Assembly (NCBI GenBank): GCA_938035945.1 | Contig: CALHOU010000029.1 | Location: forward strand, 1 to 64,000 | DNA: 64,000 nt | Direction: 5' to 3' | Source of the DNA: an uncultured Granulosicoccaceae bacterium | GTDB lineage: Bacteria; Pseudomonadota; Gammaproteobacteria; Granulosicoccales; Granulosicoccaceae | Shown here: positions 22,585 to 40,814 of the stretch, piece after piece | Numbering within the stretch: the stretch's first letter is position 1 | Layout of the letters: each line of letters begins with the position of its first letter | Notes under the pieces: generated by a model | The model's database searches: none | Seen by the model: only the letters and a program-made list of their open reading frames with translations | What the model was told of the DNA's origin: nothing | Position numbers and translations under genes: made by a program

Positions 22585-25326
22585 TTACGCCGACTGGATT
22601 TGCACAGCGCAGAATTTGAATTCCGGTATTTTCCCGAATGGATCCAAGGCTTCGTTGGTTAATAAATTGGCCGCTGCTTCGTGGTAACAGAAAGGAATGA
22701 ATATTTCGCCAGCACTTAGCCCCGCGTCACTGCGGGCGGTAGCGGTGATTTCACCACGGCGTGATATCACTTTAACCCGACCACCGGCTTCGATATTCAG
22801 GCTAGCCAAATCTTCAGGGTTTAGTGTGATGATGGCTTCTGGTTCCACCGCATCAAGCACGCGTGAACGGCGCGTCATGCTACCGGTGTGCCAGTGCTCC
22901 AATTGGCGACCGGTCATAAGCACATAGGGGTATTCATTGTCAGTCGTTTCATCGGCTGAGATGATGGTTGCAGGAACCAGTTTGGCCTTTCCCGAAGGTG
23001 TTGGGAAAGTTTCCTGGAACACCACCGGCTGACCTGGGTCTTTGTCATCGGCACACGGATAGGTAACTGAATCATTCGCTTCTAATCGCTGCCAACTGAT
23101 GCCAGTGATGCTTGGCATGGCTTGTCGCATTTCTTCGTACACTTGCGACACATGCTCGTACTGCCAATCCAGGCCTAGACGATTGGCAAGTTCCTGAATT
23201 ATCCAAATGTCATGCTTTACCTCTCCCGGCATTTCAAGCGCTTGACGACCCATCTGCACACGACGATCAGTGTTGGTTACGGTACCGTCTTTTTCTGCCC
23301 AGCCAGATGCAGGTAGCACCACATCAGCGAAAGCGGCAGTTTCGGTTAAGAACAAATCCTGAACGACTAAGTGCTTTAAACTTGCCAAGGCTTCGCGAGC
23401 ATGATTTAAGTTAGGGTCTGACATGGCTGGGTTCTCACCCATGATGTACATGCCATGCAAGGTGCCTGCAAGTACCGCATGCATAATTTCAACAACGGTT
23501 AAACCAGGTTTATCATCAAGCTGTGCATTCCAGAACTCACTGAAATGCGCATGGGCTTCTGCGTTATCAACGCGCTTATAGTCGGGGAACATCATCGGAA
23601 TTAAACCTGCATCAGATGCACCCTGTACATTGTTTTGTCCACGTAATGGATGCAAACCAGAGCCCGGTCGCCCAATTTGCCCCGAGATCATACTCAAGGC
23701 AATTAAACAGCGCGCATTATCAGTGCCATGGATGTGTTGTGATACACCCATACCCCAGAAGATCATGGAACCTTTGGACGTTGCATACACACGTGCAACT
23801 TCACGCAGGGTTTCTGCCGGTATGCCACACACAGCTTCCATTTTTTCAGGGCTGTAGTTCATGACGTTGTCTTTGAGATCTGCGTATTCTTCTGTGCGCT
23901 TAGCGATAAAGTCGGCGTCAACCAAATTTTCATCAATGATGGTATACATGATGGCGTTGAGCATGGCTACGTCGGTATCGGGCTTGAATTGCAACATGTA
24001 GTCGGCGTGCCGCGACAGATCTGTTTGCCTTGGGTCCATAACAATAAGTTTCTTGCCAGCCTTGGCCGCATTCTTCATAAACGTAGCGGCAACCGGGTGA
24101 TTACCGGCTGGGTTCGCACCAATAACGACGAGTACCTCGGCTTCAGACACATCAGCTACTTGATTCGATACTGCACCCGAACCTACACCTTCAAGCAAAG
24201 CTGCAACACTGGATGCATGGCACAAGCGTGTACAGTGATCGACATTGTTAGTTCCGAAACCGGTTCTAACCAATTTTTGAAAGAGATAAGCTTCTTCGTT
24301 ACTGCCCTTGGCCGAGCCAAAACCTGCCAAACCCGATGGTCCGTGTTCAGCCTTAATAGAATTTAAACCGCCAGCGGCGAGTTCCAGTGCTTCTTCCCAA
24401 GACGCTTCACGAAACATTTTACTGGTATCACTTGGGTCAAAAAATTCGTTAAGGCCCTTGGGCACACCTTCTTTGCGAATCAGTGGTTTGGTTAAACGCT
24501 CTGGATGTGCAAGGTAGTCAAAACCGTAGCGGCCTTTCACGCACAGCCTACTTTTGTTAGCTGGGCCATCACGACCTTCAACATACAAAATTTTGTTGTC
24601 CTTAACGTTAAACGTTAACAAGCAACCAACACCGCAATATGGGCATACTGAATCGACTTTTTTATCAATTTTTTCTAAGCCAACATTCTGTGCAGGCATA
24701 AGCGCGCCGGTTGGACAGGCTTGCACACACTCACCACAAGCAACGCAAGAACTTGCACCCATATCGTCGCCAAGATCGAACACGATCTCGGCGTGATTGC
24801 CACGAAACGCCATACCAATAACATCATTGACCTGCTCTTCACGGCAAGCACGTAAGCAACGCGTGCATTGAATACACGCATCCATGTTAACGGCAATGGC
24901 GGGATGAGTTAAGTCAGCAGGCGCTTGTTTACGTGCTTCAAATCGTGGCTGACCAACGTCGAGTTTCTTCGACCAGTACATAAGTTCTGAATCGACAGTG
25001 TAAGTAGTTTCTGCCATATCGGACTGCAGAAGCTCTAGCACCATTTTTTGCGACTTCAACGTGCGATCGGTGTTGGTATTAACTTTCATACCTTCAGTTG
25101 GCTTGCGGATACAGGAAGGCTGCAGAACGCGTTCACCCTCAATTTCAACAACACAGACGCGGCAGTTACCATCCGCTCTTAACCCTTCTTTAAAACACAA
25201 ATGCGGGATGTCTACCCCTGCACGTTTTGCCGCCTGCAAAATAGATTCGTCACCGTAGGCATCGACAATCTTGCCGTTCAGCTCAAAGCTGACGGTGGAA
25301 ATTACATCTTGTGGATTGGCCGCCAT
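22585..25326 (-). CDS. fdsA: NAD-dependent formate dehydrogenase, alpha (molybdo/tungsto-bis-MGD) subunit
   Basis: Catalytic subunit oxidising formate to CO2, 913 residues, cytoplasmic. The N-terminus has a NuoG-like 2Fe-2S domain (CFKEGLRADGNCRVC), then a His/Cys cluster region, then two 4Fe-4S motifs CIQCTRCLRAC and CVACGECVQACPTGAL. A further cluster at CPYCGVGC opens the molybdopterin domain. The active-site residue is Cys369 in NNVDHCTRLCHASS (codon TGC), so this is a cysteine, not selenocysteine, enzyme. The C-terminal MGD-binding domain contains TGRQLEHWHTGSMTRRS. Its ATG overlaps the stop of the beta-subunit gene by one base (TAATG). It resembles the Fdh1A/FdsA family of soluble NAD-linked enzymes. 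The accessory protein FdhD is not encoded nearby. Confidence 0.93.
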   Translation of the reverse strand: MAANPQDVISTVSFELNGKIVDAYGDESILQAAKRAGVDIPHLCFKEGLRADGNCRVCVVEIEGERVLQPSCIRKPTEGMKVNTNTDRTLKSQKMVLELLQSDMAETTYTVDSELMYWSKKLDVGQPRFEARKQAPADLTHPAIAVNMDACIQCTRCLRACREEQVNDVIGMAFRGNHAEIVFDLGDDMGASSCVACGECVQACPTGALMPAQNVGLEKIDKKVDSVCPYCGVGCLLTFNVKDNKILYVEGRDGPANKSRLCVKGRYGFDYLAHPERLTKPLIRKEGVPKGLNEFFDPSDTSKMFREASWEEALELAAGGLNSIKAEHGPSGLAGFGSAKGSNEEAYLFQKLVRTGFGTNNVDHCTRLCHASSVAALLEGVGSGAVSNQVADVSEAEVLVVIGANPAGNHPVAATFMKNAAKAGKKLIVMDPRQTDLSRHADYMLQFKPDTDVAMLNAIMYTIIDENLVDADFIAKRTEEYADLKDNVMNYSPEKMEAVCGIPAETLREVARVYATSKGSMIFWGMGVSQHIHGTDNARCLIALSMISGQIGRPGSGLHPLRGQNNVQGASDAGLIPMMFPDYKRVDNAEAHAHFSEFWNAQLDDKPGLTVVEIMHAVLAGTLHGMYIMGENPAMSDPNLNHAREALASLKHLVVQDLFLTETAAFADVVLPASGWAEKDGTVTNTDRRVQMGRQALEMPGEVKHDIWIIQELANRLGLDWQYEHVSQVYEEMRQAMPSITGISWQRLEANDSVTYPCADDKDPGQPVVFQETFPTPSGKAKLVPATIISADETTDNEYPYVLMTGRQLEHWHTGSMTRRSRVLDAVEPEAIITLNPEDLASLNIEAGGRVKVISRRGEITATARSDAGLSAGEIFIPFCYHEAAANLLTNEALDPFGKIPEFKFCAVQIQSA

Positions 25327-27029
25327 TAGCTGTTGGCCTCCTGTTTAAGTTCGTGGGCGAAGTGTTTGATCACACTGCGTAACGGGTTTGGAGCTGCTTG
25401 ACCTAAACCACATATAGACGCATCTTCCATAACAACAGCCAAGTCTTCCAACTGCTCAATGTTCCACGTGTCTTTGGCCATTAACGCTGCCGCTTTGCCA
25501 GTGCCTACTCGACAGGGTGTGCATTGTCCGCATGATTCATGTTCGAAAAAGCGCATAGATGTAAGCGCCGCTTGCTTCGCTGAATCCTGATCAGACAATA
25601 CGACAATGGCCGCTGACCCAATAAAACAACCGTGCGGTTGAAGCGTATCAAAGTCGAGTGGAATGTCACCCATGGACGCAGGCAAGATGCCACCGGATGC
25701 ACCGCCAGGGAAATACGCATAAAATTTATGCCCGTCGAGCATGCCACCGCAATATTCTTTGATGAGGTCTTCCATGGTGATACCAGCCGGCGCAAAATGC
25801 ACACCTGGTTTCTTTACTCGACCGGAAACAGAAAAGCTTCGTAAGCCGACTCGGTCGTTACGCCCTTCACTGGTAAACCACTCGTGGCCTTTTTCTACAA
25901 AGTCGCGCACCCAATAAAGGGTTTCAAAGTTATGTTCAAGTGTGGGCTGCCCAAACAACCCTACTTGTGCAACAAACGGAGGGCGTAATCGTGGGATGCC
26001 ACGCTTACCTTCAATGGATTCGATCATGGCTGATTCTTCGCCGCATATATAAGCACCAGCACCTCGTCGCAATTCGATTTCAGGTAATTCGAATGGTGGG
26101 TCGGCTTGAAGTTTGGCAAGCTCTTGTTCGAGAATTTCCCGGCCCAGAGCGTATTCGTCTCGGGTGTAAACCCAAATCTTTTCGATATCGACAACACTTG
26201 CCGCGATCAACATGCCTTCGAAAAAACGATGAGGATCCTGTTCGATGTAGAAGCGATCCTTGAAGGTACCGGGCTCACCTTCATCAATGTTAACCGCCAT
26301 ATACCGAGGGCCAGGCTGGTTAGAAACAATTTCCCATTTCATACCTACTGGAAATCCTGCGCCGCCTAAACCGCGTAAGCCACCGGCTTTCATTAACTGA
26401 ATGATGTCGGCCCTAGCCGGTTTACCGTCGAACACTTTAGCCGCTGTTTTGTAACCGCCTTTTTCTTTGTATTGGTCGAAACTGATATGCGCATGAGGGT
26501 TGTCTGGTACTAGCTTGCCCGACTCAACCGCACTTTTAACGGATTCAGCCGTTGCTTTATCGACCGTATTGAAACCAACAACCGCAGCCGGTGCTTCAGC
26601 GCAACGCCCAATACAAGGTACTGGTTGAATACGCACACTTTCACCAAGCTCACTTTTGAGTTGTGCGATTAACTCGTTCGCGCCGCTTAACTCACAACTA
26701 ACCGAGTCACAAACTCGAACAGTTATTGCAGGCGGGGCAACCGCATCGTCTTTAACAACATCAAAGTGATGGTAAAAAGTGGCGACTTCATAAACTTCCG
26801 CTGGCGACATTTTCATGTCGTGCGCCAATGCCACCAAGTGCGCAGAAGAGAGGTGTCCGAACTTGTCTTGTACGAGATGAAGAAACTCGATCAGCAGGTC
26901 GTTGCGACGTTCAGCATCACCGAGTAAGTCGCGTACTTGCATAAGCGCATTGATATCAACCGCGCGGCCCTTACCTTGGCCTTTTTTGCGACGCCTCCGC
27001 GTGGGTACATTGTCAGCAGGTGTTGCCAT
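25326..27029 (-). CDS. fdsB: NAD-dependent formate dehydrogenase beta subunit, NuoE-NuoF fusion
   Basis: Diaphorase subunit passing electrons from the alpha subunit to NAD. Residues about 20-170 are NuoE-like (QDKFGHLSSAHLVALA, with the 2Fe-2S cysteines in CDSVSCELSG and CIGRCAEAPA). Residues about 200-560 are NuoF-like, with the NADH-binding GLRGLGGAGFPVGMKWE, the FMN-binding RGAGAYICGEESAMIES, and 4Fe-4S ligands in ESCGQCTPCRVG plus the downstream SICGLGQ. In many organisms these are two genes (fdsG and fdsB); here they are one, as in the tungsten Fdh1 of methylotrophs. ATG at 27029 (MATPADN) was preferred over 27062 because the extra 11 residues are not family-like. Confidence 0.92.
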   Translation of the reverse strand: MATPADNVPTRRRRKKGQGKGRAVDINALMQVRDLLGDAERRNDLLIEFLHLVQDKFGHLSSAHLVALAHDMKMSPAEVYEVATFYHHFDVVKDDAVAPPAITVRVCDSVSCELSGANELIAQLKSELGESVRIQPVPCIGRCAEAPAAVVGFNTVDKATAESVKSAVESGKLVPDNPHAHISFDQYKEKGGYKTAAKVFDGKPARADIIQLMKAGGLRGLGGAGFPVGMKWEIVSNQPGPRYMAVNIDEGEPGTFKDRFYIEQDPHRFFEGMLIAASVVDIEKIWVYTRDEYALGREILEQELAKLQADPPFELPEIELRRGAGAYICGEESAMIESIEGKRGIPRLRPPFVAQVGLFGQPTLEHNFETLYWVRDFVEKGHEWFTSEGRNDRVGLRSFSVSGRVKKPGVHFAPAGITMEDLIKEYCGGMLDGHKFYAYFPGGASGGILPASMGDIPLDFDTLQPHGCFIGSAAIVVLSDQDSAKQAALTSMRFFEHESCGQCTPCRVGTGKAAALMAKDTWNIEQLEDLAVVMEDASICGLGQAAPNPLRSVIKHFAHELKQEANS

Positions 27030-27059
27030 TATGTTGATCTCAATCAGTTCAAAACAAAA

Positions 27060-27110
27060 CACTGGATAACGTTACCGCATCCAGTGTCGATTGGCGCAAA
27101 CTTGTTTGCG
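27060..27110. other. Two hairpins between fhs and formate dehydrogenase genes
   Basis: CACTGGAT/ATCCAGTG (27060-27067 and 27079-27086) and CGCAAAC-TT-GTTTGCG (27095-27110) form two stem-loops in the 136-base gap. They may attenuate or process the transcript running from fhs into the dehydrogenase genes. Confidence 0.4.
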
Positions 27111-27165: not shown

Positions 27166-28839
27166 CTAGAACAAGCCTTCAACCACGCCTTTGTCGTTCA
27201 TTTTAATACGATTTGCCGCAGGTTCTCGCGGCAAGCCCGGCATGGTCATGATGTCACCACAGACAACCACGATAAAGCCCGCACCGGCCGACAAGCGCAC
27301 TTCACGTACCGGCAACGTGTGGCCGGTTGGCGCACCCTTGGCATCTGGGTCTACCGAGAAGCTGTATTGGGTTTTCGCAATACACACAGGCAAGTTACCA
27401 AAGCCCTCGGCTTCGAGTTCGGCTACCTGATTTACTGTTTTCTGATCTACCGAGATATCGTCAGCACGGTAGAACTTGGTTGCAACAGAACGTACTTTGT
27501 CCAGCAATGGCATATCGTCAGGATAGGATGGTGCGAAGTTCGCCTCACCACTGTCAGCCAAGCGTGCAACTTCAGCCGCCAGCTCTTCAGTGCCCGCACC
27601 ACCTTCAGCCCAGTGATTCGCGTCAATCGCCTTCACACCAAATTTTTCGCATGCATCTGTTACCGCTTTCATTTCCGCTTCAGTGTCAGCCGAAAATCGG
27701 TTAATGGCCACAACCACAGGCACACCAAACGATTGCACGTTTTCGATATGACGCTCTAAGTTTGTGCAACCATCTTTAACCGCTTGCACATTCTCTTTTC
27801 CAAGATCATCTTTAGCCACACCACCGTGCATCTTTAATGCACGTACCGTTGCCACCAAGGTAACCGCATCAGGCTTCAATCCGGCTTGACGACATTTGAT
27901 ATCAAAGAATTTCTGTGCACCAAGGTCGGCACCAAAACCAGCTTCAGTAACAACGTAGTCGGCTAACTTAAGTGCGGACTTTGTTGCGATAACAGAGTTA
28001 CAACCGTGCGCAATATTGGCGAAAGGCCCGCCGTGAATAAAGGCTGGATTGTGCTCAAGTGTTTGTACCAGGTTTGGATTAATTGCATCTTTTAGCAACA
28101 CGGCCATTGGGCCCGGCGCCATCACTTCCGATGCACGAATAGGCTTTCGCTCACGCGTGTAGGCGATAACAATTCTACCCAAACGTTCGGTTAAATCTTC
28201 AATGCTGGTTGCCAAGCAGAAGATCGCCATAACCTCTGAAGCCACAGTTATATCAAAACCATCTTGGCGTGGGTAACCATTACCCGGACCACCAAGTGAG
28301 CTGGTGATCTGACGAAGCGATCGATCGTTCATATCAACAACACGACGCCAGGCAACTCGGCGTGAATCAATACCCGCCGCGTTTCCCCAGTAGATGTGAT
28401 TGTCAATCAATGCAGATAACAAACTGTGTGCAGAGGTAATTGCATGGAAGTCGCCAGTGAAATGCAAGTTAATATCCTCCATTGGAATAACTTGCGCGTA
28501 TCCACCGCCGGCCGCGCCACCTTTCATACCGAAGCAAGGTCCCAAGCTAGGCTCACGCAAACACACCATCGCATCTTTGCCGATACGATTAAGGCCATCG
28601 GTTAAACCAACAGAGGTTGTGGTTTTGCCTTCGCCAGCTGGTGTTGGTGTTATCGCTGTAACCAGTATCAGCTTGCCGTTCGGCTTGTCTTTAAGCGATT
28701 CGATGTACTTGAGATCCACCTTTGCCTTCGTATGCCCGTAAGGCATAAGCGCATCATTGGGAATGCCCAATCTGTCAGCGATTTCACCAATTGGTTTTAT
28801 CGTTGCCGCTTGCGCGATATCAATGTCATTCACGTACAT
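27166..28839 (-). CDS. fhs: Formate-tetrahydrofolate ligase
   Basis: Ligates formate to tetrahydrofolate with ATP to make 10-formyl-THF (reversible). Length 557 is normal. The P-loop is in [14 protein letters not shown] near residue 65. [25 protein letters not shown]-type sequence near residue 105-130, [17 protein letters not shown] near residue 265, and [14 protein letters not shown] near 300 are characteristic. Upstream GAGAGGAA is a strong ribosome site. It follows the formyltransferase-like gene after a 266-base gap and precedes the formate dehydrogenase genes, so formate made from oxalate could be assimilated here or oxidised by the next enzyme. Confidence 0.96.
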
Positions 28840-29105: not shown

Positions 29106-30020
29106 TTAAGAACCTAACACCTCACCCGCCTTCAGCCCTGTACGTGAAGCGTAGTCTGCCGCTGACTCTTTGCCCGCATCAGCTTTCACCCGCATCACCT
29201 GAATCGAACCGCCATTCCCAGCAACAGTAAACTGCTTATCATCAACACTGATAATCTCGCCGGGAGCTCCAGCCGAATCACTCAACAACCGCGCTTCAAA
29301 TACACTAAGCTGCTCTGCGTTTCTAAGCGTCCACGCACCCGGCTGAGGAATACCAGCACGAATGATGTTGTATACCTCTTGAGCCGGCTTTGCCCAGTCG
29401 ATCTCCGCCTGTTTCTTACCAAACCACGACTCATAGGTGCCATCTGATAAATTTTGTTCAACGCGCGGCGCTTTGTTATCACGAACCAAGTCCAGCGATT
29501 CGATCATGGCGTCGACTCCCATTGGGAACAACTTGTTGAAGTACACATCAGCCAAGGTTTCATCGGCACCGATATCGCAGGTCTTCTGCATCAAAATGGG
29601 CCCTTCATCCAAGCCTTCATTGGGCCAAAAAATACTCAAACCTGTTTCAGTCGCACCCATTGCAATTGGCCAATTAATCGACGACGGCCCTCTGTGCATG
29701 GGCAACAATGACGGATGGTATTGAAACGAACCAAGCTTTGGTGCATCAAGCACTGGCTGCGGCACGAACAATAGAACGTAAGCCATCATACAAACATCGG
29801 CATCGAAACTTTTCATCAATTCAAGCGCTTCATCGGTTTTCCATGAGGCAGGCTGATGAACTGGCAAACCCTTTTCCAGCGCGAGGGCTTTTATCGGGTC
29901 GACCGGCCTGCCCTCTTTGTCCGGCGCTGTGCACACAGCCACAACATCTTCACCACGCTCAAGCAGTTTTTCTAAAACGGCTTGTCCAAAAGCTTGTTGA
30001 CCGTGTACAACAATTCTCAT
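29106..30020 (-). CDS. 10-formyl-THF hydrolase/formyltransferase-like protein
   Basis: A 304-residue protein of the formyltransferase fold. It resembles the N-terminal hydrolase domain of 10-formyl-THF dehydrogenase (ALDH1L) more than Met-tRNA formyltransferase. Catalytic His102 is in YHPSLLPMHRG and catalytic Asp138 in GLDEGPIL, with the same 36-residue spacing as His106/Asp142 of the rat enzyme. INWPIAMGATETGLSIFW and WAKPAQEVYNIIRAG are further matches. The C-terminal 90 residues form the usual small barrel domain (PGAWTLRNAEQL). It is encoded one base after frc, so translation is probably coupled. It might hydrolyse 10-formyl-THF to formate or move a formyl group between THF and another acceptor such as CoA; this cannot be decided from sequence. 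Confidence 0.8.
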   Translation of the reverse strand: MRIVVHGQQAFGQAVLEKLLERGEDVVAVCTAPDKEGRPVDPIKALALEKGLPVHQPASWKTDEALELMKSFDADVCMMAYVLLFVPQPVLDAPKLGSFQYHPSLLPMHRGPSSINWPIAMGATETGLSIFWPNEGLDEGPILMQKTCDIGADETLADVYFNKLFPMGVDAMIESLDLVRDNKAPRVEQNLSDGTYESWFGKKQAEIDWAKPAQEVYNIIRAGIPQPGAWTLRNAEQLSVFEARLLSDSAGAPGEIISVDDKQFTVAGNGGSIQVMRVKADAGKESAADYASRTGLKAGEVLGS

Positions 30021-30021
30021 A

Positions 30022-31269
30022 TTAGATTGCTCCCTCTGTTTTCATGGATTCAATATCGCTGGCTGAGTAGCCTAAGACGGATTGCAAGACATCCTCAGTG
30101 TGTTCACCTAACAACGGTGATCGTTCAACATCTACTGGCGAATCAGATAATTTAATAGGACAGCCAACCGTAAGGTATTTGCCACGCTCCGGATGATCTA
30201 CTTCCACAATGGTGCCGGTTTCGCGAAGTGAAGGTTCCTCGGCAATCTCTTTCATCGACAAAATGGGACCAACTGGGATGTTGAGTGGATTACAAATTTC
30301 CATCACATCAAATTTGTTTTTGGTTTTAGTCCACGCTTCAACCGCATCGAACACTTCGTTTAAGCGCGGTAGACGGGCTGCAGGTGTCGCAAAATCTTCA
30401 TGCTCTTTCCATTCAGGCTTGCCGATCACATCGCATACGTTTTTCCACACCGCCGCTTGGGTGATGAAGTAGGTGTAGGCATTTGGATCGGTTTCCCAGC
30501 CTTTACACTTTAATATCCGTCCCGGTTGACCACCACCAGAGTCGTTACCAGCTCTAGGCGTTGCATCCCCGAATGCGTGGCCTTCGCCAAATTGTGAATA
30601 TTCCTCCAGTGGGCCTGCATCTAAACGTTGTTGGTCACGCAATTTAACGCGACATAAATTAAGTACACCGTCTTGCATAGGCGCAAGTACCTTTTGACCT
30701 TTACCGCTTTTTTCACGTTGGAAAAGTGCAGTAACAATGCCCAGAGCCAGATGCAGGCCAGTTCCCGAATCACCGATTTGCGCACCGGTAACTAACGGAA
30801 CGCCATCTCTAAATCCAGTGGTTGAGGCGGAACCACCAGCGCACTGAGCAATGTTTTCATAGACTTTACAGTCTTCGTATGGTCCGGGGCCAAAGCCTTT
30901 AACTGAGGCTAGAATAATTCGAGGATTTAATTCCTGTATGCGCTCCCACGAAAAGCCCATCCGATCAAGCGCACCAGGTGCGAAATTTTCAACCATCACA
31001 TCACACTCTTTGACGAGTTTTTCCAGCACTTCTTTACCGCTGTCGGTTTTGGTGTTCAGCGTAATCGAACGCTTATTGTGATTAAGCATGGTGAAATAAA
31101 GCGAATCGGCACCTTCAACGTCAACCAACTGTTTACGCGTTGCATCGCCGACGCCAGGTCGCTCAACCTTAATAACATCGGCGCCGAAGAAACCCAGAAG
31201 CTGGGTACAAGTGGGACCAGATTGGACGTGAGTGAAATCCAGAATTTTAACGCCGTCAAGTGCTTTCAT
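30022..31269 (-). CDS. frc: Formyl-CoA:oxalate CoA-transferase
   Basis: Class III CoA-transferase that moves CoA from formyl-CoA to oxalate. 415 residues. The catalytic aspartate is Asp167 in [12 protein letters not shown], matching Asp169 of the Oxalobacter enzyme. Other near-identical stretches are [52 protein letters not shown] and [17 protein letters not shown], the last containing the glycine loop of formyl-CoA transferases. The match is specific to Frc rather than the broader CaiB/BaiF family. It lies between oxc and the formyltransferase-like gene. Confidence 0.95.
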
Positions 31270-33095: not shown

Positions 33096-33184
33096 TTTTT
33101 TCACCTCAAATTAGTTTTATAACGAGCGAGCTTAGCTTGCAAAACTGGGAACAACTACGTGCGCGAACTATGCTCTTGTATGAA

Positions 33185-33877
33185 CTAGTCCAGATAATAA
33201 ACATGCTTCTCGACGTGCTCAGCAAGCTTCAGCGCGTGTTCTCTAACCAGCTTTTCAACTTTGGCAGTTTCACGATTCATCAGTGCTTCTATAATCCGCA
33301 TGTGATCAATGATTGATTGAATCGTTCTATCCGGATCTTTAATGGTACTGGAGCGAATAGAGTGCATATGTGCAAACGATAATCGAGCAGTCGAAATTAA
33401 AAAATCATTTTTACTCAGTGAAATAATATCTTGATGGAACTTGATATTGTTTTCCGAGTACTCATCAATACGGGCGCCATCAGATCTTCTATCAGCTTGA
33501 TAGCCGTTACAGCGAATTCGAAAAGATTCTAATTCTTTGTCGCTTGCATGCAGTGTTGCCAATCTTGCTGCCATAGATTCCAGTGCAGCCCATACTTGGA
33601 TTATTTCCACAATTTCGCGCTTGGTTTTGCGTACCACAAATGTACCGCGACGAGGTATGTTTTTAACCAACCCTTCTTGCTCAAGTCTGGACAACGCTTC
33701 TCGAACGGGCGTGCGACTCACTCCTAACATGTCTGCTAGTTTGCGTTCGTCCAATTTAGGCGGCTCTTTAACAGAGTAAATATCCATCGATATAACCGCC
33801 GTACGCAAAGCATCAAATACGCGGTCTTTTAATCCCGGGTCACTTTGAATAGGTTTAATTCGCAAATCGTCAGTCAT
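33185..33877 (-). CDS. GntR-family transcriptional regulator (FadR/FCD type)
   Basis: DNA-binding regulator of about 230 residues. An N-terminal winged helix (ERKLADMLGVSRTPVREALSRLEQEGLV, then PRRGTFVV) is followed by an all-helical FCD effector domain with potential metal ligands (NIKFHQDI near the middle, MRIIEALMNRE and VREHALKLAEHVEKH at the end). FCD regulators usually sense organic acids. The frame opens with a TTG at 33895; ATG at 33877 is used here, and the choice is open because neither has a strong ribosome site. It lies between the transporter and oxc, so it probably controls this block through the TGGTAT-N5-ATACCA sites described below. Confidence 0.88.
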   Translation of the reverse strand: MTDDLRIKPIQSDPGLKDRVFDALRTAVISMDIYSVKEPPKLDERKLADMLGVSRTPVREALSRLEQEGLVKNIPRRGTFVVRKTKREIVEIIQVWAALESMAARLATLHASDKELESFRIRCNGYQADRRSDGARIDEYSENNIKFHQDIISLSKNDFLISTARLSFAHMHSIRSSTIKDPDRTIQSIIDHMRIIEALMNRETAKVEKLVREHALKLAEHVEKHVYYLD

Positions 33878-33902
33878 ACTCTGTTTATTATTCAAGCATC
33901 AA

Positions 33903-35420
33903 TTACACAGCGGCCGCCGCGGCAGCTTTGCGTTTTTTGTATTTCAAATAAACGGGGTACGCGATTAGCAATACAGCTAAAAATACACACGTACCACTAA
34001 TTGGGCGCGTTACAAAGGTTGAGAAATCACCGTGCGAGGCAAGCAGTGATTGCCTTAGCGAGCGTTCTGCTAATGGACCTAGCACGATTGCCAACACCGC
34101 AGGCGCAACGGGGTAATTAAGTTTTCGTAGCAGATAGCCAACGATGCCAAACAAAAACATGAGCCAAACATCGTGCATTGTTTGTGTCGGAGCGTAGCCA
34201 CCCACGATGCAAAGTATGTAGATCACCGGCGCAAGAATGGTAAATGGCATGGTGAGCACTTTGACAAATACAGGAATAAACGCCAAGTTGATAATAAGCG
34301 TGACAAAATTAGCAATATAAAGTGAGCCGATAAGTCCCCACACGAAATCAGGATGCTCTGTAAAAAGTAATGGTCCGGGTCGCAAGCCCCAAATGATCAT
34401 CCCACCTAATAAAATGGCGGTCGTTGGCGAACCGGGAATACCGAGTGTGATCATCGGCAACATGGAGCCTGTTGAAGCTGCATTATTCGCAGCCTCAGGT
34501 GCGGCAACACCTGCAACATTCCCTTTACCAAAACTGTCCGGGTCTTTAGAGAACGTTTTCGCTAAACCATAGGACATTAATGAAGCTGGTGTTGCACCGG
34601 CCGCCGGCAGGGTTCCAACAAAATAACCAAGTACCGAACCCAAGGTCGTTGTACCTATATAGGATTTGACTTCTTTAATGTTATTGATCAAAGAGCGGAA
34701 AGACATTTTGACTTTATGTACTGTCACTTTGCCTTGGGATGTTTCTAGCGTCCAAAGCATTTCCCCGATACCGTATATTCCAATGGCTAGCACAAGAAAG
34801 TTAATTCCGTGCATAAACCCTGAGATATCACCAAAGATGAGTCGTGGTTTACCAGAGATTATGTCCAAGCCAATGGTTGCTAGCACTAGCCCGATAAGGA
34901 TTGAAAATATAGTTTTTGGAATATCGTCTCCACCTAAGCCAATAAACGTAGCAAATGCCAAAAGCATCAAGGCAAATTCTTCAGGCGGTCCGAATTTCAA
35001 TGCAAAAGAAGCCAGGGGTGGAGCGAACAAGGTGAATAACACAACCGAAATAGTGCCACCAATAAACGATGCAATCGCTGCCGCTGTTAGTGCTTTATCG
35101 GCCTGACCGGACTGCGCCAACGGCCTGCCATCAAACACGGTAGCCACCGCCGTGGATGCGCCGGGTATGCCTAATGTGATTGAACTTATGGCGCCACCAT
35201 ACATGGCACCGTAATAGATCGCGGCCAGAAAAATAATCGCAGACGTTGGTGGAACCAAAAAAGTAATGGGCAGGAGAATGGCGACCCCGTTAACCGAACC
35301 CAATCCGGGCATGGCACCAACGAGTAAACCGACCGCGCAACCAATGATGATCATGGTTAAATTTAGCGGTTGTAGCGCTTCGAGTATCCCGGCGCCCAAT
35401 AAAGCTAATACCGAATCCAT
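33903..35420 (-). CDS. tctA: Tripartite tricarboxylate transporter large membrane subunit TctA
   Basis: Large integral membrane protein, 505 residues with about twelve spans. Signature segments of the TctA family are visible: VGAMPGLGSVNGVAILLPITF near residue 37-57, AIYYGAMYGGAISSITLGIPG near residue 67-88, and the repeat MITLGIPGSPTTAILLGGMI near residue 325-345. It begins immediately after the tctB stop with no gap and ends seven bases before the regulator. TTT systems use a soluble binding protein to import carboxylates with an ion gradient. The location between SucCD-like and oxalate enzymes suggests oxalate or a related dicarboxylate as substrate. Confidence 0.92.
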   Translation of the reverse strand: MDSVLALLGAGILEALQPLNLTMIIIGCAVGLLVGAMPGLGSVNGVAILLPITFLVPPTSAIIFLAAIYYGAMYGGAISSITLGIPGASTAVATVFDGRPLAQSGQADKALTAAAIASFIGGTISVVLFTLFAPPLASFALKFGPPEEFALMLLAFATFIGLGGDDIPKTIFSILIGLVLATIGLDIISGKPRLIFGDISGFMHGINFLVLAIGIYGIGEMLWTLETSQGKVTVHKVKMSFRSLINNIKEVKSYIGTTTLGSVLGYFVGTLPAAGATPASLMSYGLAKTFSKDPDSFGKGNVAGVAAPEAANNAASTGSMLPMITLGIPGSPTTAILLGGMIIWGLRPGPLLFTEHPDFVWGLIGSLYIANFVTLIINLAFIPVFVKVLTMPFTILAPVIYILCIVGGYAPTQTMHDVWLMFLFGIVGYLLRKLNYPVAPAVLAIVLGPLAERSLRQSLLASHGDFSTFVTRPISGTCVFLAVLLIAYPVYLKYKKRKAAAAAAV

Positions 35421-36119
35421 TTACTGGGCTCCTTCAGTTGTTGATGGCGACGCAGTTGGTTCAGCGCCTGCATCGGAAACCATCGCAACCGATTTCGCGC
35501 TAGCACGCTTTTTAAACCACCGAGATAACCAGTAAGCCAATACAGCAAAAACAAGTACAACCGGTATGAACACTATTGAATACTGCAATGTTGCTAATCG
35601 CTCGCCAAAGCTTCTTGCATAAATTAGATCGTACACTGGGTAAAAGGCAGGGTCGGTTATGGCTTTAGGCAATGGAATTGTAAGCGCAACTTCAAATAAG
35701 CAAAATATAAAAAATGGAATGCAAATAGCCAAAGACAAGGTTAAAGCCCATGAATGCCGACCGACAACACGCAGGTAAAACAATAAGAACACAATGAGGG
35801 ACGGGTAAATTCCAATAAACTGGGTACCGATAAGCAAACCTAGAATAGCACCGGCAGATACGCCCACAACAACAATTGTTTGTGCGCTCATATAAGGTTC
35901 TAGCGAATTGGATTCGGGTGTGATTCGCTTTACCCACCGATAAATCGTTAGCAAGCAGGTTACCAGCATGCCTGCTGACAACCAAAAGGGCCACGCACCA
36001 GAACCAGGCCCCTTGCCCTCTATCCAACCAATATTCAATTCGGCGCTTTTGACCATCAAACCGATGGAACACAGCGCCAGAATAATCGCAAACAACAGTT
36101 CAGCTGTTCTAACAGTCAT
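35421..36119 (-). CDS. tctB: Tripartite tricarboxylate transporter small membrane subunit TctB
   Basis: Small membrane subunit of a TTT transporter. 232 residues, longer than the usual 150-180 because of a hydrophilic C-terminal tail (ASAKSVAMVSDAGAEPT). The family hallmark GPGSGAWPFWLSAGML is near residue 38-53. Further spans include VVGVSAGAILGLLIG and a last one near residue 190-210. It is directly coupled to tctA. The sequence of TctB proteins is poorly conserved, and the assignment depends on the hallmark motif plus neighbours. Confidence 0.85.
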   Translation of the reverse strand: MTVRTAELLFAIILALCSIGLMVKSAELNIGWIEGKGPGSGAWPFWLSAGMLVTCLLTIYRWVKRITPESNSLEPYMSAQTIVVVGVSAGAILGLLIGTQFIGIYPSLIVFLLFYLRVVGRHSWALTLSLAICIPFFIFCLFEVALTIPLPKAITDPAFYPVYDLIYARSFGERLATLQYSIVFIPVVLVFAVLAYWLSRWFKKRASAKSVAMVSDAGAEPTASPSTTEGAQ

Positions 36120-36236: not shown

Positions 36237-37232
36237 CTACTCGCCAGTTATCGCAGCAGCACCTACTGCTTCAATTAAATCAACGTGACGCTTTAGTTGA
36301 ACAGTATGGAACTCCGCCAAGTCATCACCTGCGGACCATTCACCACAATCAAGACCATCATCAACACAGAATTGTTGCCATTCATCTGATTCGAATACTT
36401 GTTTAAACAAATCAATGTACCAGGCTTGAGCATCGGCAGACATGCCTGGAGGTCCATTTAAAGAACGCTGCATATAGTACTCAATGTCTATACCCAACTC
36501 TTTCGCCGTTGGAATATCCGGATAAGCCGGTAGACGTTCAGCGGTAAATTGAACAAGCGGCTTTGTATTACCAGCACGGTAAAATTCGTTCTGCTCAGCA
36601 GGATTATTAACCGTTGAGTTAATGTGCTTACCAACCAAGTTTTTGGCAACTGTGCCGCCACCAGGAAAAGGAATGTAGGTAACGTCGTAACCAAATTCCT
36701 TTTCCATCATTGCAGTCAGGATTGAATCTTCCTGACCAGAACCAGTTCCTCCCACTTTCCAGTCAATGCCAGCAGCCTTAACCGCTGCAACATAACTATC
36801 AAGATCGGTTATGTCTTTATCATCGGTGTGAACCCACAATAAAAAGTTATCGATCGCCATACGACCAATGGGCGTAAATTTAGAAACATCAACGCCCAAA
36901 TCTTTTTGTATGACCGGTGTGGTGTAGAAGCTATTGAGTGTTACCAGAACCGTGTGATCATCACCTGCTTTGTCTTGCAAGTAACGTAAGGCTTCAGCAC
37001 CTGATCCACCTGGCTTGTTGATGGGTATAACTGGACGCGGTGATAAATCTTTCTTTTCGATTAAGCCTTGAATTAAGCGAGCGATTTGATCAGCACCACC
37101 ACCGGTTCCGGCCATGATAATCATTTCAATGGGTTTTCTTGGAGACCATTCAGCCAAGGCAGACGCTGAAAATGTCATTGCGGTAGTTGCTGCTACGACC
37201 ATAGGCAGTAACGGTTTGACGAACTTTTTCAT
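36237..37232 (-). CDS. tctC: Tripartite tricarboxylate transporter periplasmic binding protein TctC
   Basis: Periplasmic solute-binding protein, 331 residues from ATG 37232, which has GGAGG six bases upstream and gives a good signal peptide (LLPMVVAATTAMTFSASALA). The longer frame to 37286 overlaps nothing useful. TctC features include WSPRKPIEMIIMAGTGGGADQIAR, the substrate loop PINKPGGSGAEALRYL, and DWKVGGTGSGQEDSIL, PFPGGGTVAKNLVG, PTAKELGIDIEYYMQRSLNGP. A TGGTAT-N5-ATACCA dyad lies 55 bases upstream. Ligand identity is unknown; oxalate or another short carboxylate is inferred from the neighbours. Confidence 0.9.
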   Translation of the reverse strand: MKKFVKPLLPMVVAATTAMTFSASALAEWSPRKPIEMIIMAGTGGGADQIARLIQGLIEKKDLSPRPVIPINKPGGSGAEALRYLQDKAGDDHTVLVTLNSFYTTPVIQKDLGVDVSKFTPIGRMAIDNFLLWVHTDDKDITDLDSYVAAVKAAGIDWKVGGTGSGQEDSILTAMMEKEFGYDVTYIPFPGGGTVAKNLVGKHINSTVNNPAEQNEFYRAGNTKPLVQFTAERLPAYPDIPTAKELGIDIEYYMQRSLNGPPGMSADAQAWYIDLFKQVFESDEWQQFCVDDGLDCGEWSAGDDLAEFHTVQLKRHVDLIEAVGAAAITGE

Positions 37233-37286
37233 GTATTCCTCCATCTGTTTTTTGTGCATCGCGGCGATGAAAAACCGGATGAGCAT

Positions 37287-37305
37287 GTGGTATTACGCAT
37301 ACCAA
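37287..37305. promoter_or_regulatory. Candidate GntR operator upstream of tctC
   Basis: Inverted repeat TGGTAT-TACGC-ATACCA at 37288-37304, 55 bases in front of the tctC ATG in the sucD-tctC gap. The same arms with the same five-base spacer occur upstream of sucC (39564-39582). FadR-type GntR proteins bind short dyads of this kind. Confidence 0.65.
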
Positions 37306-37366
37306 ATTTAAACGTACCCGACCAATTGCTTAATGTCAAAAGCACATTCAAAATAAAAACTTGTTG

Positions 37367-38254
37367 CTAAATTCTTGTGTGTGAGTTCAGCACTGAAAAC
37401 ACCTCTTTTCCTATATTTATTGGGGAATTAGCGATGACTACGCCTGCCGATTCCAACATTTCTTTCTTAACCGATGCCGTCCCCATTCCGTGCTTATGTA
37501 TAGCGCCTGCGTGTCCCATGCGTCTGTTATGTGGTGCAGAATGTCCCGCTATATAACTTACGATGGGCTTTTTATACTCGTTGTTAGTCAGAAACTCAGC
37601 AACCTGTTCCTCTGCAGTGCCACCAATTTCACCAACGAGAACAATACCTTCAGTCTGCTCGTCATGTTCAAACAATTCGAGAATATCAACAAAAGACATT
37701 CCGCCAACAGGGTCCGCGCCAATGCCCACACATGTGGATTGACCTAAACCATTCTTGCTTGTTTGAATAACGACTTCATAAGTTAAGGTACTCGATCGTG
37801 AAACGATACCCACGCGACCGGGTCGAAATATTTCAAGCGGCATGATCCCAACTTTGCATTGCTCAGGGGTTACAACACCTGGGCAGTTAGGACCCAGCAA
37901 CCGACTGTTTGAGTGAGCCAGGGCCGAGCGCACACGAACCATATCAAGGATGGGGATGCGTTCAGTGATGCACACAATTAGCGGTACATCAGCGTCTATC
38001 GCTTCGAGTATCGCCTTGGCTGCAAATGTCGGCGGCACAAGAATCAGGGTGGCGTTTGCTCCAGTTATCTCTATGGCTTCAGTAACGGTATTAAATACCG
38101 GCAAACCTAAGTGTGTGCTACCACCTTTACCCGGCGTGACACCGCCAACCACTTGTGTTCCTAAGGCAATGGCACGCTCACTATAGAACGTGGCTTGCTT
38201 GCCAGTGAAGCCTTGGCAGAGCAATTTCGTTTGCTTGTCTACTAATATCGCCAC
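37367..38254 (-). CDS. SucD-like acyl-CoA ligase alpha subunit
   Basis: Alpha subunit of a succinyl-CoA-synthetase-like (ADP-forming) ligase. The frame extends upstream to 38353, but homology to SucD begins at [18 protein letters not shown], so a GTG start at 38254 with AAGG seven bases upstream is chosen (295 residues, normal for SucD). The phosphorylated histidine is His248 in [12 protein letters not shown], matching His246 in E. coli. CoA-binding [15 protein letters not shown] and GGVTPGKGG are conserved. A Ser replaces the Gly in the usual SRSGTLTYE (here SRSSTLTYE). It begins ten bases after the SucC-like stop. Location next to a carboxylate transporter and oxc/frc suggests a substrate other than succinate. 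Confidence 0.85.
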
Positions 38255-38264
38255 GATGCGCCCT

Positions 38265-39527
38265 TCACGTTGAACTGGTTTCGCGTATATTAACCACACG
38301 CTGCCACCAACTTTTATGTGGCTTTGCCTCACTTTTAGATGCAAGAGCAGCACTGACCCCAGTTACGGCCTCCATGGCGTCAGCGAAATCTGATGTGACG
38401 TAGATGTCTGGCAATGATGCACTCAAACGTTGATTAGCAAGTGATGCGTTGGTTCCCGCTAACCTAACAACCATTGGAACAGCAATATTCTGTTGCTCAT
38501 TAATCACAAGGATCGCATCAGCAACGGCGTCGCAGCGCATGATTCCACCACCGATAATATTAATAAACAAAACGTTGACGCTCTGATTGTGCAACACCAG
38601 TTCGATCGCCTGACGAATGACATCAACACTAGATGATGGTGGTATATCTAAAAAGTTAGCAGGTTTTAATTCAGCATCATTAAGCGCATCAATAACAGCC
38701 ATTGCCAGGCCAGCGCCCGCAGAAACGGTGCCGACATTGCCTGAAAAATGTACGTAATTCAGACCTAGACACTTGGCTTTAAATTCAGACGCTGGAAGAT
38801 GATCGTAGGCTACCATTTGTTCTTCGTGACCTTGCCTAAACAAGGCATTGTCATCCCATGCAATCGCCGCATCCAGCACGCTTAATTCATCATGCTCGTT
38901 TAGCCCAATGGGGTTTAATTCTATTAAGGTTGCGTCTTTGTCAATAAAAATGGACAACAATGTATCGAGCATTTGATTGCATTCGGCAGCTGCGTTTGCA
39001 TCAAACCCAAGAAACTCGTTTATCTTGGTTGGCACTTGTGGGTTTGCTATATCAACGGGAAAGCGTTTTATAAGTTCAGGTGACTGCTGAGCTAACGACT
39101 CAATGCCAACGCCACCCTCATTAGAGGCAACAAAACTTAGCGATCCGGTATCGCTATCTATACAAAGAGCGATATACTTTTCATCACCCACTTGCACGAA
39201 CTCTTCGATATAAACGCTGTTAACCCGCTCCCCTGCTAATCCAGTTTGATCTGTAACTAATACATTCCCGATCATTTGTGCCGCACAGGCTTTAACTTGA
39301 GCAACGCTTTCCACGACGCGGATGCCACCGCGAGACTGACTATCATTTTTGAAATAGCCTTGCGCGCGGCCGCCAGCCTGAATCTGCGCTTTGACGACGA
39401 ATTTGGGCAGGTTTAGATCACTTGCAATGCGGGATGATTCTTCGACGCTCTTAGCCAGACCACCGCGAGGGATGCGCACACGGGCATCACGCAAAATGTT
39501 TTTTGCTTGATGCTCCGTAAGATTCAT
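38265..39527 (-). CDS. SucC-like acyl-CoA ligase beta subunit
   Basis: Beta subunit of a succinyl-CoA-synthetase/malate-thiokinase-like ligase, 420 residues against about 390 for SucC. It has an ATP-grasp N-terminus ([36 protein letters not shown]) and a ligase CoA domain. The loop that in SucC reads FLDVGGGA is FLDIPPSSS here (residues 292-300), which is a marked change in a normally invariant region near the active site. The following [16 protein letters not shown] resembles malate-CoA ligase more than SucC. The C-terminus adds about 30 polar residues ending TSST. It is most likely an energy-dependent activator of a carboxylic acid, possibly oxalate; the true substrate is unknown. Confidence 0.82.
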
Positions 39528-39563
39528 GCGTCAAGTACAACCATAGGTCGAATTTCATGAGCT

Positions 39564-39582
39564 CTGGTATTTGGTATACCAG
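39564..39582. promoter_or_regulatory. Candidate GntR operator upstream of sucC-like gene
   Basis: CTGGTAT-TTGGT-ATACCAG, a seven-base inverted repeat with a five-base spacer, sits 37 bases upstream of the SucC-like start. The core TGGTATACCA (39572-39581) is itself a perfect palindrome. The arm sequence and spacing equal those of the site in front of tctC. Confidence 0.65.
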
Positions 39583-39700
39583 ATTATCACTAAGGGATTT
39601 ATTTGCAAGCGATATTTTGCGCCATGAAAATGGCTATGAGAGCGTGATTATTCTAAGGATTTGCGCGTAACTGCTGTTAGGCGACTTGTGCGGAAAAGCA

Positions 39701-39725
39701 CTGGTGGTGCATGGCGCACCACCAG
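39701..39725 (-). terminator. Terminator after the PanE-like gene
   Basis: CTGGTGGTGC and its perfect reverse complement with a five-base loop, ten bases after the stop of the minus-strand reductase gene and followed on that strand by TGCTTTT. This looks like a Rho-independent terminator separating the reductase from the SucC-like gene. Confidence 0.75.
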
Positions 39726-39734
39726 CAAAAAGTA

Positions 39735-40814
39735 TTATCCGGCCTTTTTAGACGTCCGATTGGACTCCAAATGCTTGTCAACATACGCCACTGTTTGCTC
39801 CAGTGAATCCAAGCTCATGTTGAACTGTTGGCCAATCGACTGAACCAGACTATCCACCCGCTCGATATTGTTCGCACCTGAAAAAACGGCCCGAGCGCCT
39901 GACGAAGGCTTACTTAGTCCTTTCGCGGCGTTCGCGTATTTATCGAAAGGCACCATGTCAGTTTCATTTGCGCCCATTTTCACACACAGATCAACTACCC
40001 ACTGATAAACGCGCTTTGACTCATCTAAATCAGCATGCACAGCATCTTTGATCGACACCATTTCGTCATGTTTAATACAACGGTAGTTTCCGGTTACCAA
40101 CATGCTCCACTTAGCCAACGGCACGTACAACGAATCGAATACTTTTAACTTCACTGGCAACGGCGTACTTGAACCATCCGGTAATTCAAAATCGATGGCT
40201 GCCATATCATCCTGCATCTGTTCGAGCATCTTTGTGTGAGCATCTGATTGAAAACGCGCAACTTTAAAGTTTGTTGGCAAACTCACTTCTAAAACATTCT
40301 TAGCTTCCTCAGGCGGACGAAAAGCTTGAGGGTCCGGGCTGGCTAGCGTGACCAGTCCGGGTTCAAAGTTTGCCCAAACAGAAGGATCAGTATAACTGGG
40401 CAATAGAGATTCGATATCGATGTTAGGAAGCCGCTGTAAGTAAGGTAAAGGCGGCATATTCATGATTGCCATTGCTGGTACTTTTGCTAAGCCAACTTTG
40501 TTCAATAATTCGCGAACACCTGGCACACCGTATTGCGGTTCCTGCATACCTAACACGACAAGGTCATAATCTTTTGGATTTACCTTTTCAGGCGTGCTAG
40601 CACGTAACGGTGCATTTAATTTCTTGGATTCCACATGCACTAATTCGTCACGTCCACGTACGGGAATCTTTACATGCGTACCTTCAGCGTTAATCAGATC
40701 CGCCGTGTTTTTAGTGCAAACCAACGTTACTGCATGGCCGGCTAATAGAAGCTTGGTTCCAAGCAACGAACCATAGGATGCCCCCATGATTAAAACGTTA
40801 TAAGAAATTGTCAC
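39735..40814 (-). CDS. PanE/ApbA-like ketopantoate reductase family protein
   Basis: NADPH-dependent 2-ketoacid reductase family member, 359 residues (ketopantoate reductases are about 300). The N-terminal Rossmann fold opens with VLIMGASYGSLLGTKLLLAGHAVTLV, where the glycine pattern GxSxxG replaces the usual GxGxxG. The C-terminal helical domain contains KWSMLVTGNYRC, the equivalent of the KLxxN region of the family. Start is GTG at 40814 with AGGAG seven bases upstream (40822-40826). It is the first gene of the minus-strand block and is separated from the SucC-like gene by a terminator. Its substrate is unknown; reduction of a small 2-oxo acid such as glyoxylate would fit the neighbourhood but is inference. 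Confidence 0.75.
   Translation of the reverse strand: MTISYNVLIMGASYGSLLGTKLLLAGHAVTLVCTKNTADLINAEGTHVKIPVRGRDELVHVESKKLNAPLRASTPEKVNPKDYDLVVLGMQEPQYGVPGVRELLNKVGLAKVPAMAIMNMPPLPYLQRLPNIDIESLLPSYTDPSVWANFEPGLVTLASPDPQAFRPPEEAKNVLEVSLPTNFKVARFQSDAHTKMLEQMQDDMAAIDFELPDGSSTPLPVKLKVFDSLYVPLAKWSMLVTGNYRCIKHDEMVSIKDAVHADLDESKRVYQWVVDLCVKMGANETDMVPFDKYANAAKGLSKPSSGARAVFSGANNIERVDSLVQSIGQQFNMSLDSLEQTVAYVDKHLESNRTSKKAG

Follow-up and report, generated by a model that had tools for sequence, protein, structure and literature searches.

The 64,000-nucleotide stretch of contig CALHOU010000029.1 analysed here, referred to below as the window, belongs to a marine bacterium of the family Granulosicoccaceae that is represented by a 4.6-Mb metagenome-assembled genome (86% complete). 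Positions 22585-40814 hold 13 open frames, all on the minus strand, in the transcription order panE-like, sucC, sucD, tctC, tctB, tctA, gntR, oxc, frc, fmtL, fhs, fdhB and fdhA. A preliminary description of this block had placed its genes on one strand and read them together as a single system for the utilization of oxalate. All of the genes it named are present, and their identities are borne out by the open frames and by matches to NCBIfam and Pfam families.

The center of the block encodes oxalyl-coenzyme A (oxalyl-CoA) decarboxylase (Oxc; 31347..33104), which scores 997 bits against TIGR03254 (cut-off 739) and is the sole match above that cut-off in the genome, and formyl-CoA:oxalate CoA-transferase (Frc; 30022..31269; TIGR03253, 706 bits, cut-off 504). 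Downstream, beyond fmtL, lie the genes for formate-tetrahydrofolate (THF) ligase (Fhs; 27166..28839; NF010030, 918 bits, cut-off 652) and a two-subunit formate dehydrogenase. Specifically, FdhB (25326..27062; PF01257, PF01512 and PF10589) is an NAD-linked subunit of the NuoE-NuoF fusion type, and FdhA (22585..25326; TIGR01591, 778 bits, cut-off 666) is a molybdopterin formate dehydrogenase alpha subunit with a NuoG-type N-terminus. With FdhA above its equivalog cut-off and a NuoEF-type partner beside it, the pair constitutes an NAD-linked molybdo formate dehydrogenase. Upstream of oxc are a GntR-FCD regulator (33185..33895; Pfam GntR and FCD domains) and a complete tripartite tricarboxylate transporter (TTT), whose three subunits are encoded together and all exceed their Pfam cut-offs: the large membrane subunit TctA (33903..35420; PF01970, 503 bits), the small membrane subunit TctB (35421..36119; PF07331, 51.7 bits) and the periplasmic solute receptor TctC (36237..37286; PF03401, 88.7 bits), which matches Bug-type receptors in the PDB. 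A search confined to the block found no OxlT oxalate:formate antiporter.

From fdhA to panE, the intergenic gaps measure -1, 103, 266, 1, 77, 80, 7, 0, 117, 80, -89 and 207 bp. Most are short, with frc separated from fmtL by 1 bp and from oxc by 77 bp. The 89-bp overlap between sucD and sucC probably results from a SucD start placed too early, because the family match begins only at residue 36; judging from this alignment, the true start is probably near residue 35. A terminator-like hairpin between ytoQ and panE (40977..40995, minus strand), identified by consensus match only, possibly marks the upstream operon edge; scanning the whole stretch for such hairpins gave 31 matches versus 22.2 expected in shuffled sequences. 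A promoter scan of the stretch returned 16 matches, below the 27.7 expected.

Gene order was compared among genomes, a check proposed in the preliminary description. The same 13 genes occur in identical order in a congeneric genome (G020, locus L118), which excludes a chance neighborhood, and parts of the arrangement recur across Alphaproteobacteria. Oxc is carried by 10 of the 27 genomes of the genus and by 4 of 9 other family members, several of these genomes being incomplete, and thus the block is patchy in its distribution.

For a wider survey, we examined the best 80 of at least 593 confirmed relatives, all of them named oxc loci, a sample that describes the closest relatives and leans to Alphaproteobacteria. 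We added 14 regions from the family and removed L131, which has no oxc, as well as two duplicates: L124 (from G026, of the same genus as the window), identical over 20 kb to L010, and L120 (from G029, another family member), identical to L008. Of the resulting 91 loci, 45 are well flanked (7 kb or more to either side of oxc), and the other 46 stand outside the paired tables. Gene calls based on open reading frames (ORFs) overlooked fmtL at two loci (L044 and L077) and sucC at one (L029), and therefore a tblastn recount was used alongside.

Across the 91 loci, frc is present at 89 and a gntR relative lies near oxc at 82. Among the well-flanked loci, tblastn detects frc at 45, gntR at 41, TctA at 34, TctC at 33, fmtL at 22, fhs at 20, OxlT at 19, a 722-aa fused ADP-forming ligase at 18, SucC at 14, the window-type PanE at 8 and a second, 338-aa PanE family at 6. 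A TctA or OxlT-type gene occurs at 42 of these 45 loci, and a SucCD-like or fused ADP-forming CoA ligase at 28. The ORF-based count deviates by no more than one (TctA 34, OxlT 20, either 43, CoA ligase 28). When the sample is thinned to 25 loci sharing less than 90% Oxc identity, TctA remains at 18 and OxlT at 7. Many of the surveyed TctA proteins are only 47-50% identical to that of the window. A side observation from these loci is a protein of ~600 aa, with a weak, below-cut-off match to the zeta-toxin family (P-loop kinase type), encoded near oxc or tct at 15 of the 91 loci (e.g. L125:1027-2823).

These counts bear on a second claim of the preliminary description, namely that oxalate clusters normally use an antiporter and lack both a TTT system and a SucCD-like ligase, such that the block in the window may be a distinct type. 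Published accounts do name OxlT as the oxalate transporter (PMC9476978 and, in an excerpt, PMC12927642), and part of a 2023 study notes that this antiporter is known from just two aerobic strains (PMC10192776). However, an OxlT-type gene is missing at 26 of the 45 well-flanked loci, and the presence of TctA at 34 and of a CoA ligase at 28 makes this a common layout in the sample. The contrast with 'normal' oxalate clusters thus fails for these loci, and a distinct type marked by these two features is very improbable. A search that excluded subscription journals found no paper combining Oxc, Frc, oxalate and a tripartite tricarboxylate transporter.

FmtL (29106..30020) is a free-standing homologue of the hydrolase domain of 10-formyl-THF dehydrogenase. 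Its sequence scores 195 bits against that domain (PDB 4qpd) and 145 bits against Fmt (1fmt), and it falls below the cut-off for methionyl-tRNA formyltransferases (TIGR00460, 153.4 versus 201.5). The genome has a second gene of the Fmt superfamily, 28% identical (G000:C18), and on these grounds we rejected FmtL as the housekeeping Fmt. For the predicted structure (pLDDT 95.2), the Foldseek E-value ranks 4qpd first (2.7e-35), whereas the template modeling score (TM-score) favors Fmt (1fmt_A 0.94, root-mean-square deviation 1.7, versus 4qpd 0.88, deviation 2.7), and thus the fold cannot choose between them. FmtL retains the HPSLLP motif and the Asp motif, and in 33 sequences H102 and D138 do not vary; ALDH1L1 relies on His106 and Asp142 for catalysis. 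CoA bears a phosphopantetheine arm. The animal 10-formyl-THF dehydrogenase domain transfers a formyl group from 10-formyl-THF to the thiol of the same kind of arm, as described in an excerpt of PMC8748788. From these sequence features, FmtL may be a formyl-CoA/THF formyltransferase or the orphan formyl-CoA hydrolase.

The genomic distribution of FmtL ties it to enzymes that make formyl-CoA. In a sample of 398 genomes from the phylum, in which FmtL was accepted at an E-value of 1e-60 or better and Oxc at 1e-100 or better (best three to five candidates per genome scored), FmtL occurs in 10 genomes, Oxc in 30 and both in 9. Thus, Oxc is present in 9 of 10 FmtL genomes versus 21 of 388 others (Fisher p 2e-10; 3e-9 without the genome of the window). 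Among 57 relatives, 15 carry FmtL at 44% identity or more, 12 of them with Oxc and three with a gene resembling 2-hydroxyacyl-CoA lyase beside frc-fmtL. Because all 15 have either Oxc or the lyase-like gene, FmtL appears to track a maker of formyl-CoA rather than Oxc per se. The two relatives with Oxc and without FmtL (G007 and G025) have contigs that stop where fmtL would be expected. Of the 42 relatives without FmtL, 40 also lack Oxc; the search for the lyase-like gene did not extend to these 42. Where a locus holds both frc and fmtL, the two lie within 400 bp of each other on the same strand in 44 of 46 cases. Named strains that carry an FmtL relative include Aurantimonas marina (L014), Methylopila sp. 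Yamaguchi (L040), Hyphomicrobium sp. CS1BSMeth3 (L075) and Limibaculum sediminis (L087).

The three lyase-bearing genomes, all from Granulosicoccaceae (G027, G032 and G030; 95, 84 and 91% complete), have no Oxc match in their assemblies and retain FmtL. Between gntR and frc, in place of oxc, they carry a thiamine pyrophosphate enzyme that is ~25% identical to Oxc (L131:9771-11516; L138 from ~3153; L139 from ~4825). The top match of the G027 copy is a 2-hydroxyacyl-CoA lyase (PDB 7pt3, 267 bits), and among the 25 NCBIfam matches listed it is below every cut-off. Identity to this copy is 91% in G032 and 90% in G030, and the adjoining frc genes are 85-88% identical to that of the window. G032 reproduces the order of the window as sucCD-tctCBA-gntR-X-frc-fmtL, where X is the lyase-like gene; gntR, frc and fmtL are kept at all three loci, and the TTT genes at two. 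G035, a further species in the genus that includes G027 and G032, has a true oxc at the same spot (L130). In alignment, the lyase-like enzyme lacks the Tyr-Glu pair of Oxc (GDYEEMDQ), so it may be a poor oxalyl-CoA decarboxylase. Formyl-CoA chemistry is common to oxalyl-CoA decarboxylase and 2-hydroxyacyl-CoA lyase, according to part of PMC8411744. Separately, G035 carries a trimethylamine-methyltransferase-like gene (L153:319-1902; 270 bits, cut-off 525) near a window-type sucC.

Like the closer superposition of FmtL on Fmt, several observations weigh against placing FmtL in the oxalate system as proposed here. Kinship among genomes means that the Fisher p-values overstate independence and serve as a guide only. 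FmtL is absent from 21 of the 30 Oxc genomes in the phylum sample. One genome (G357) has an fhs-fmtL pair and no Oxc, G029 has a second gntR-fmtL-usp group (L141:8385-11427) without frc or oxc, and in G030 a 3-kb contig carries another fmtL adjacent to sucC. In addition, fmtL is 165 kb from oxc in G443 and on a separate contig in G389.

An alternative is that FmtL hydrolyzes formyl-CoA (EC 3.1.2.10), or that it hydrolyzes 10-formyl-THF and does no more than trim the folate pool. The solved structures that match it best in sequence are hydrolase domains, formyl-CoA hydrolase has lacked a gene since 1963 (excerpt of PMC10192776), and a folate-only role fits the fhs-fmtL pair of G357. However, a 10-formyl-THF hydrolase adjoining Fhs would presumably waste ATP, and it would leave without explanation the tie to Oxc and the lyase-like enzyme, which have formyl-CoA in common. 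It would also have no Fhs to accompany in five of the nine FmtL genomes beyond that of the window in the phylum sample (four of one genus plus G443), which likewise excludes the idea that FmtL is always partnered with Fhs. In the four genomes of one genus (L204, L207, L208 and L209; 1.7-2.1 Mb, 100% completeness estimate), oxc, two frc genes and fmtL lie together, with a 142-aa frame between the two frc genes in three of the four. A formyl-CoA hydrolase, in turn, would be expected to compete with Frc. Weighing these points, we regard a hydrolase as a serious possibility that is nonetheless rather doubtful.

The second candidate of interest is the ligase. Its SucD-like alpha subunit (37367..38353) exceeds the succinate-CoA ligase cut-off (TIGR01019, 419 versus 353), whereas the SucC-like beta subunit (38265..39527) is below both cut-offs for succinate-CoA ligase beta subunits (334 versus 375.6, and 351 versus 370). 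SucC scores 270 bits against NF010647 (cut-off 604), and malate-CoA ligase was therefore rejected. The features of an ADP-forming CoA ligase are kept, including the phosphohistidine loop MGHAGA and an ATP-grasp_2 domain (179 bits), along with the Lys and Glu at what we take to be the ATP-site positions of E. coli SucC. The differences from canonical enzymes lie elsewhere: in SucC, VGGGA has become IPPSS, VNGAG has become SAGAG, and a one-residue insertion before the GGI turn yields GGG; in SucD, SRSGTL has become SRSSTL with the catalytic histidine kept. By motif mapping, these altered stretches would be the acid-side helix-tip loops. A structural study aligned these enzymes by loops that lie at the ends of the two acid-proximal helices (part of PMC11494057).

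Three types of ligase occur at oxc loci: canonical SucCD (class I), non-canonical SucCD (class II), to which the pair in the window belongs, and the 722-aa fused enzyme, which joins both halves and is found at 22 of the 91 loci, mostly without SucC. Loop changes like, though not identical to, those of the window mark class II copies in Chelatococcus (L049), Methylopila (L055), an unclassified proteobacterium (L045) and the second copy of Mesorhizobium escarrei (L019); the SucC of L121, cut by a contig end, was left out of class II. In a phylogenetic tree, oxalate-locus SucC proteins are polyphyletic, which excludes a single common family. Class I falls among alphaproteobacterial SucC proteins and class II forms a long-branched group, so the class II clade is uncertain, although the loop changes are independent of it. 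The genome's second SucC (G000:C19) groups with E. coli SucC. The 722-aa ligase excludes fmtL, which is found at 0 of 18 loci with this ligase versus 21 or 22 of 27 without. SucCD has no such effect, and fmtL and CoA ligases are thus not plain alternatives.

Oxc and Frc together keep the CoA charge cycling, and each oxalyl-CoA that is reduced to glyoxylate frees its CoA. Recharging would therefore be needed wherever a reductase operates. Among the 45 well-flanked loci, a ligase is present by ORF calls at 15 of 15 PanE-type loci versus 13 of 30 others (p 0.0002; 0.0006 when thinned at 90%), and by tblastn recount at 14 of 14 versus 14 of 31 (p 0.0003). From its altered loops, we consider the class II SucDC of the window a candidate oxalate-activating ligase. 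Three findings argue the other way: the link between PanE and ligase falls to p 0.09 in the 16 loci that remain after thinning at 85% Oxc identity, 16 of the 91 loci have class I ligases with canonical loops, and in three small alphaproteobacterial genomes the oxc-locus SucC is the only SucC found. In those three genomes it is likely the ordinary citric-acid-cycle enzyme, and class I copies in general are probably ordinary succinyl-CoA synthetase.

Succinyl-CoA is the CoA donor in the EC 2.8.3.2 reaction. The pair in the window might be an ordinary succinyl-CoA synthetase carried along with the cluster; at most it would provide succinyl-CoA as the donor for a recorded oxalate CoA-transferase (EC 2.8.3.2) to which no gene is assigned (excerpt of PMC10192776). 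The class I copies just described fit such an arrangement. However, the pair in the window is class II, with loops changed in both subunits, and a canonical-type SucC is encoded elsewhere in the genome; moreover, a third, 722-aa kind of ADP-forming ligase recurs at oxc loci that mostly lack SucC. An ordinary synthetase here has an appreciable chance of being correct, though we would not expect it.

The third candidate is the PanE-like reductase (359 aa; 39735..40814), the product of the probable first gene of the operon. It scores far under the PanE cut-off (TIGR00745, 20.6 versus 141). Its AlphaFold2 model (pLDDT 92.7) has a ketopantoate-reductase-like fold, and its top PDB matches are D-mandelate dehydrogenase and PanE proteins (best E-values ~1e-11 to 1e-12; TM ~0.55-0.65 by query length). 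The gene occurs in 14 of the 57 relatives, all within the 17 that have Oxc or a lyase-bearing cluster. In 23 hand-chosen Oxc genomes, the PanE-like gene is present alone in 13, the 338-aa PanE family alone in 7 (at 48% identity or more), both in 3 and neither in 0 (p 0.0005); a 24th genome (G060) was searched for one family only. If matches of 36-40% identity in G067, G068 and G069 are counted as the 338-aa family, the distribution becomes 10, 7 and 6 with both. We infer that two far-diverged PanE families do one job, which makes the PanE-like protein a candidate second oxalyl-CoA reductase. In C. necator, growth on oxalate is slowed when ApbA2, which belongs to the PanE family and is encoded near frc-oxc, is deleted, and it stops when frc-oxc is removed (part of PMC7486775).

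It is also conceivable, though in our estimate unlikely, that the substrate of the PanE-like protein is not oxalyl-CoA but another acid, for example hydroxypyruvate or tartronate semialdehyde. Its fold is common to D-mandelate dehydrogenase and ketopantoate reductase, and in several genomes copies lie away from oxc. Against another substrate stand its restriction among the 57 relatives to genomes with Oxc or a lyase-bearing cluster and its complementarity to the other PanE family in the 23 chosen genomes.

If oxalyl-CoA is reduced, the fate of the resulting glyoxylate must be considered. C. necator assimilates oxalate through the glycerate pathway (part of PMC7486775). Glyoxylate carboligase was found in 0 of the 57 relatives at the search threshold or family cut-off, and the E. 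coli positive control was detected. Glyoxylate therefore probably enters as glycine, which together with folate-bound one-carbon (C1) units would give serine, and this would explain the presence of C1-folate genes in an oxalate operon. Conversely, a gcl-type gene lies near oxc at L021, L029, L036 and L067 (one cluster by similarity), and none of these loci has fmtL. Gcl was confirmed on L029, and hyi and tartronate-semialdehyde reductase on L021; a fifth locus, with hyi only, also lacks fmtL. Judged by gene content, there seem to be two designs, one that carries gcl and follows the glycerate route and another in which oxc is accompanied by C1-folate genes and carbon goes to serine.

Together, these observations suggest the following scheme. 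TctABC, by virtue of its linkage, would import oxalate. The SucDC-like ligase would spend ATP to form oxalyl-CoA, directly or via a donor acid, and so replace the CoA charge lost through the reductase. As assigned from well-characterized families, Frc is predicted to move CoA from formyl-CoA to oxalate and Oxc to decarboxylate oxalyl-CoA, and the resulting formate would be either oxidized by Fdh to CO2 and NADH or converted by Fhs to 10-formyl-THF. FmtL would act on formyl-CoA, most likely by passing the formyl group to THF. The PanE-like reductase would convert oxalyl-CoA to glyoxylate, which as glycine would join folate-bound C1 to make serine. We think it likely that the block is an aerobic operon for oxalate import, oxidation and assimilation. 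The earlier reading of the block as one oxalate system is mostly right, as the conserved gene order and the co-occurrence of FmtL and PanE with Oxc support it. What goes beyond that reading is the tie of FmtL to formyl-CoA makers, the non-canonical SucDC loops, the pair of reductase families that complement each other and, in three relatives, the gene for a lyase-like enzyme at the oxc position. A more ambitious set of claims is tentative, and we would be somewhat surprised if all held jointly: that FmtL is a formyl-CoA:THF formyltransferase linking CoA- and folate-bound C1 pools outside hydrogenase maturation, in the reverse of the ALDH1L1 half-reaction; that bacteria have an ADP-forming oxalate-CoA ligase in class II SucDC; and that the lyase-swapped operon has turned to another source of formyl-CoA.

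According to an excerpt of the 2023 study, the initial loading of CoA onto oxalate (EC 2.8.3.2) and formyl-CoA hydrolase (EC 3.1.2.10) have been without genes since the 1960s (PMC10192776). Candidates for filling these gaps come from the conserved block: FmtL could act on formyl-CoA, TctABC could take up oxalate, and activation could be the task of class II SucDC or of the 722-aa ligase. Much of the layout recurs among relatives, and our interest is in three candidate genes that may, respectively, activate oxalate, process formyl-CoA and serve as a second oxalyl-CoA reductase. The block also suggests that serine could be made from oxalate alone without glyoxylate carboligase. Should FmtL prove to link formyl-CoA with folate, it would also be of use in synthetic metabolism built on formate. 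A search of titles and abstract beginnings, which excluded full texts and subscription journals, found no description of these candidates. Term searches gave no oxalate or formate passage in a kelp-microbiome paper (PMC9238374) and no operon layout in PMC6994688.

Two features of the window outside the block are recorded here. Immediately upstream, positions 41199-42509 encode a YtoQ-family protein and a universal stress protein (Usp); the position of ytoQ next to panE is kept in G020, and other oxc loci repeatedly contain a Usp protein of ~286 aa. At 44140-47363, a DUF3131 protein adjoins a cellulose-synthase-like glycosyltransferase.

Several known systems resemble parts of this block. Like the Oxc-Frc-OxlT pathway of the Oxalobacter formigenes type, it has Oxc and Frc above equivalog cut-offs, yet it carries TctABC rather than OxlT and adds a CoA ligase, a PanE-like reductase, FmtL, Fhs and Fdh. 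The E. coli acetyl-CoA:oxalate CoA-transferase YfdE has been proposed to prime oxalate catabolism without formyl-CoA (part of PMC3720670), whereas the window has an ADP-forming ligase and not a second CoA-transferase. The aerobic oxalate assimilation systems of Methylobacterium extorquens (PanE2) and Cupriavidus necator (ApbA2) also place a PanE-family gene near frc-oxc. The PanE-like protein of the window differs in falling below the PanE cut-off, and PanE2, we infer, resembles the 338-aa family. The glyoxylate carboligase of the C. necator glycerate pathway is the enzyme found in none of the 57 relatives.

At the level of individual proteins, the SucDC pair shares with succinyl-CoA synthetase (SucCD) its subunit layout, histidine loop and ATP-grasp domain, and differs in the acid-side loops of both subunits and in a SucC under the family cut-off. 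FmtL shares HPSLLP and G-D-G type motifs with the hydrolase domain of ALDH1L1, its top match by sequence and by Foldseek E-value. Unlike ALDH1L1, however, FmtL is free-standing, has no carrier or aldehyde dehydrogenase domain, resides in oxalate operons and has a higher TM-score to Fmt. The N-terminal domain of HypX has a fold related to the FmtL model (TM 0.66-0.69) at ~18% identity. HypX has been proposed, without direct experiment, to pass a formyl group from 10-formyl-THF to CoA (part of PMC6802093). FmtL lacks the decarbonylase half of HypX, and the direction of formyl transfer that we propose for it is the reverse.

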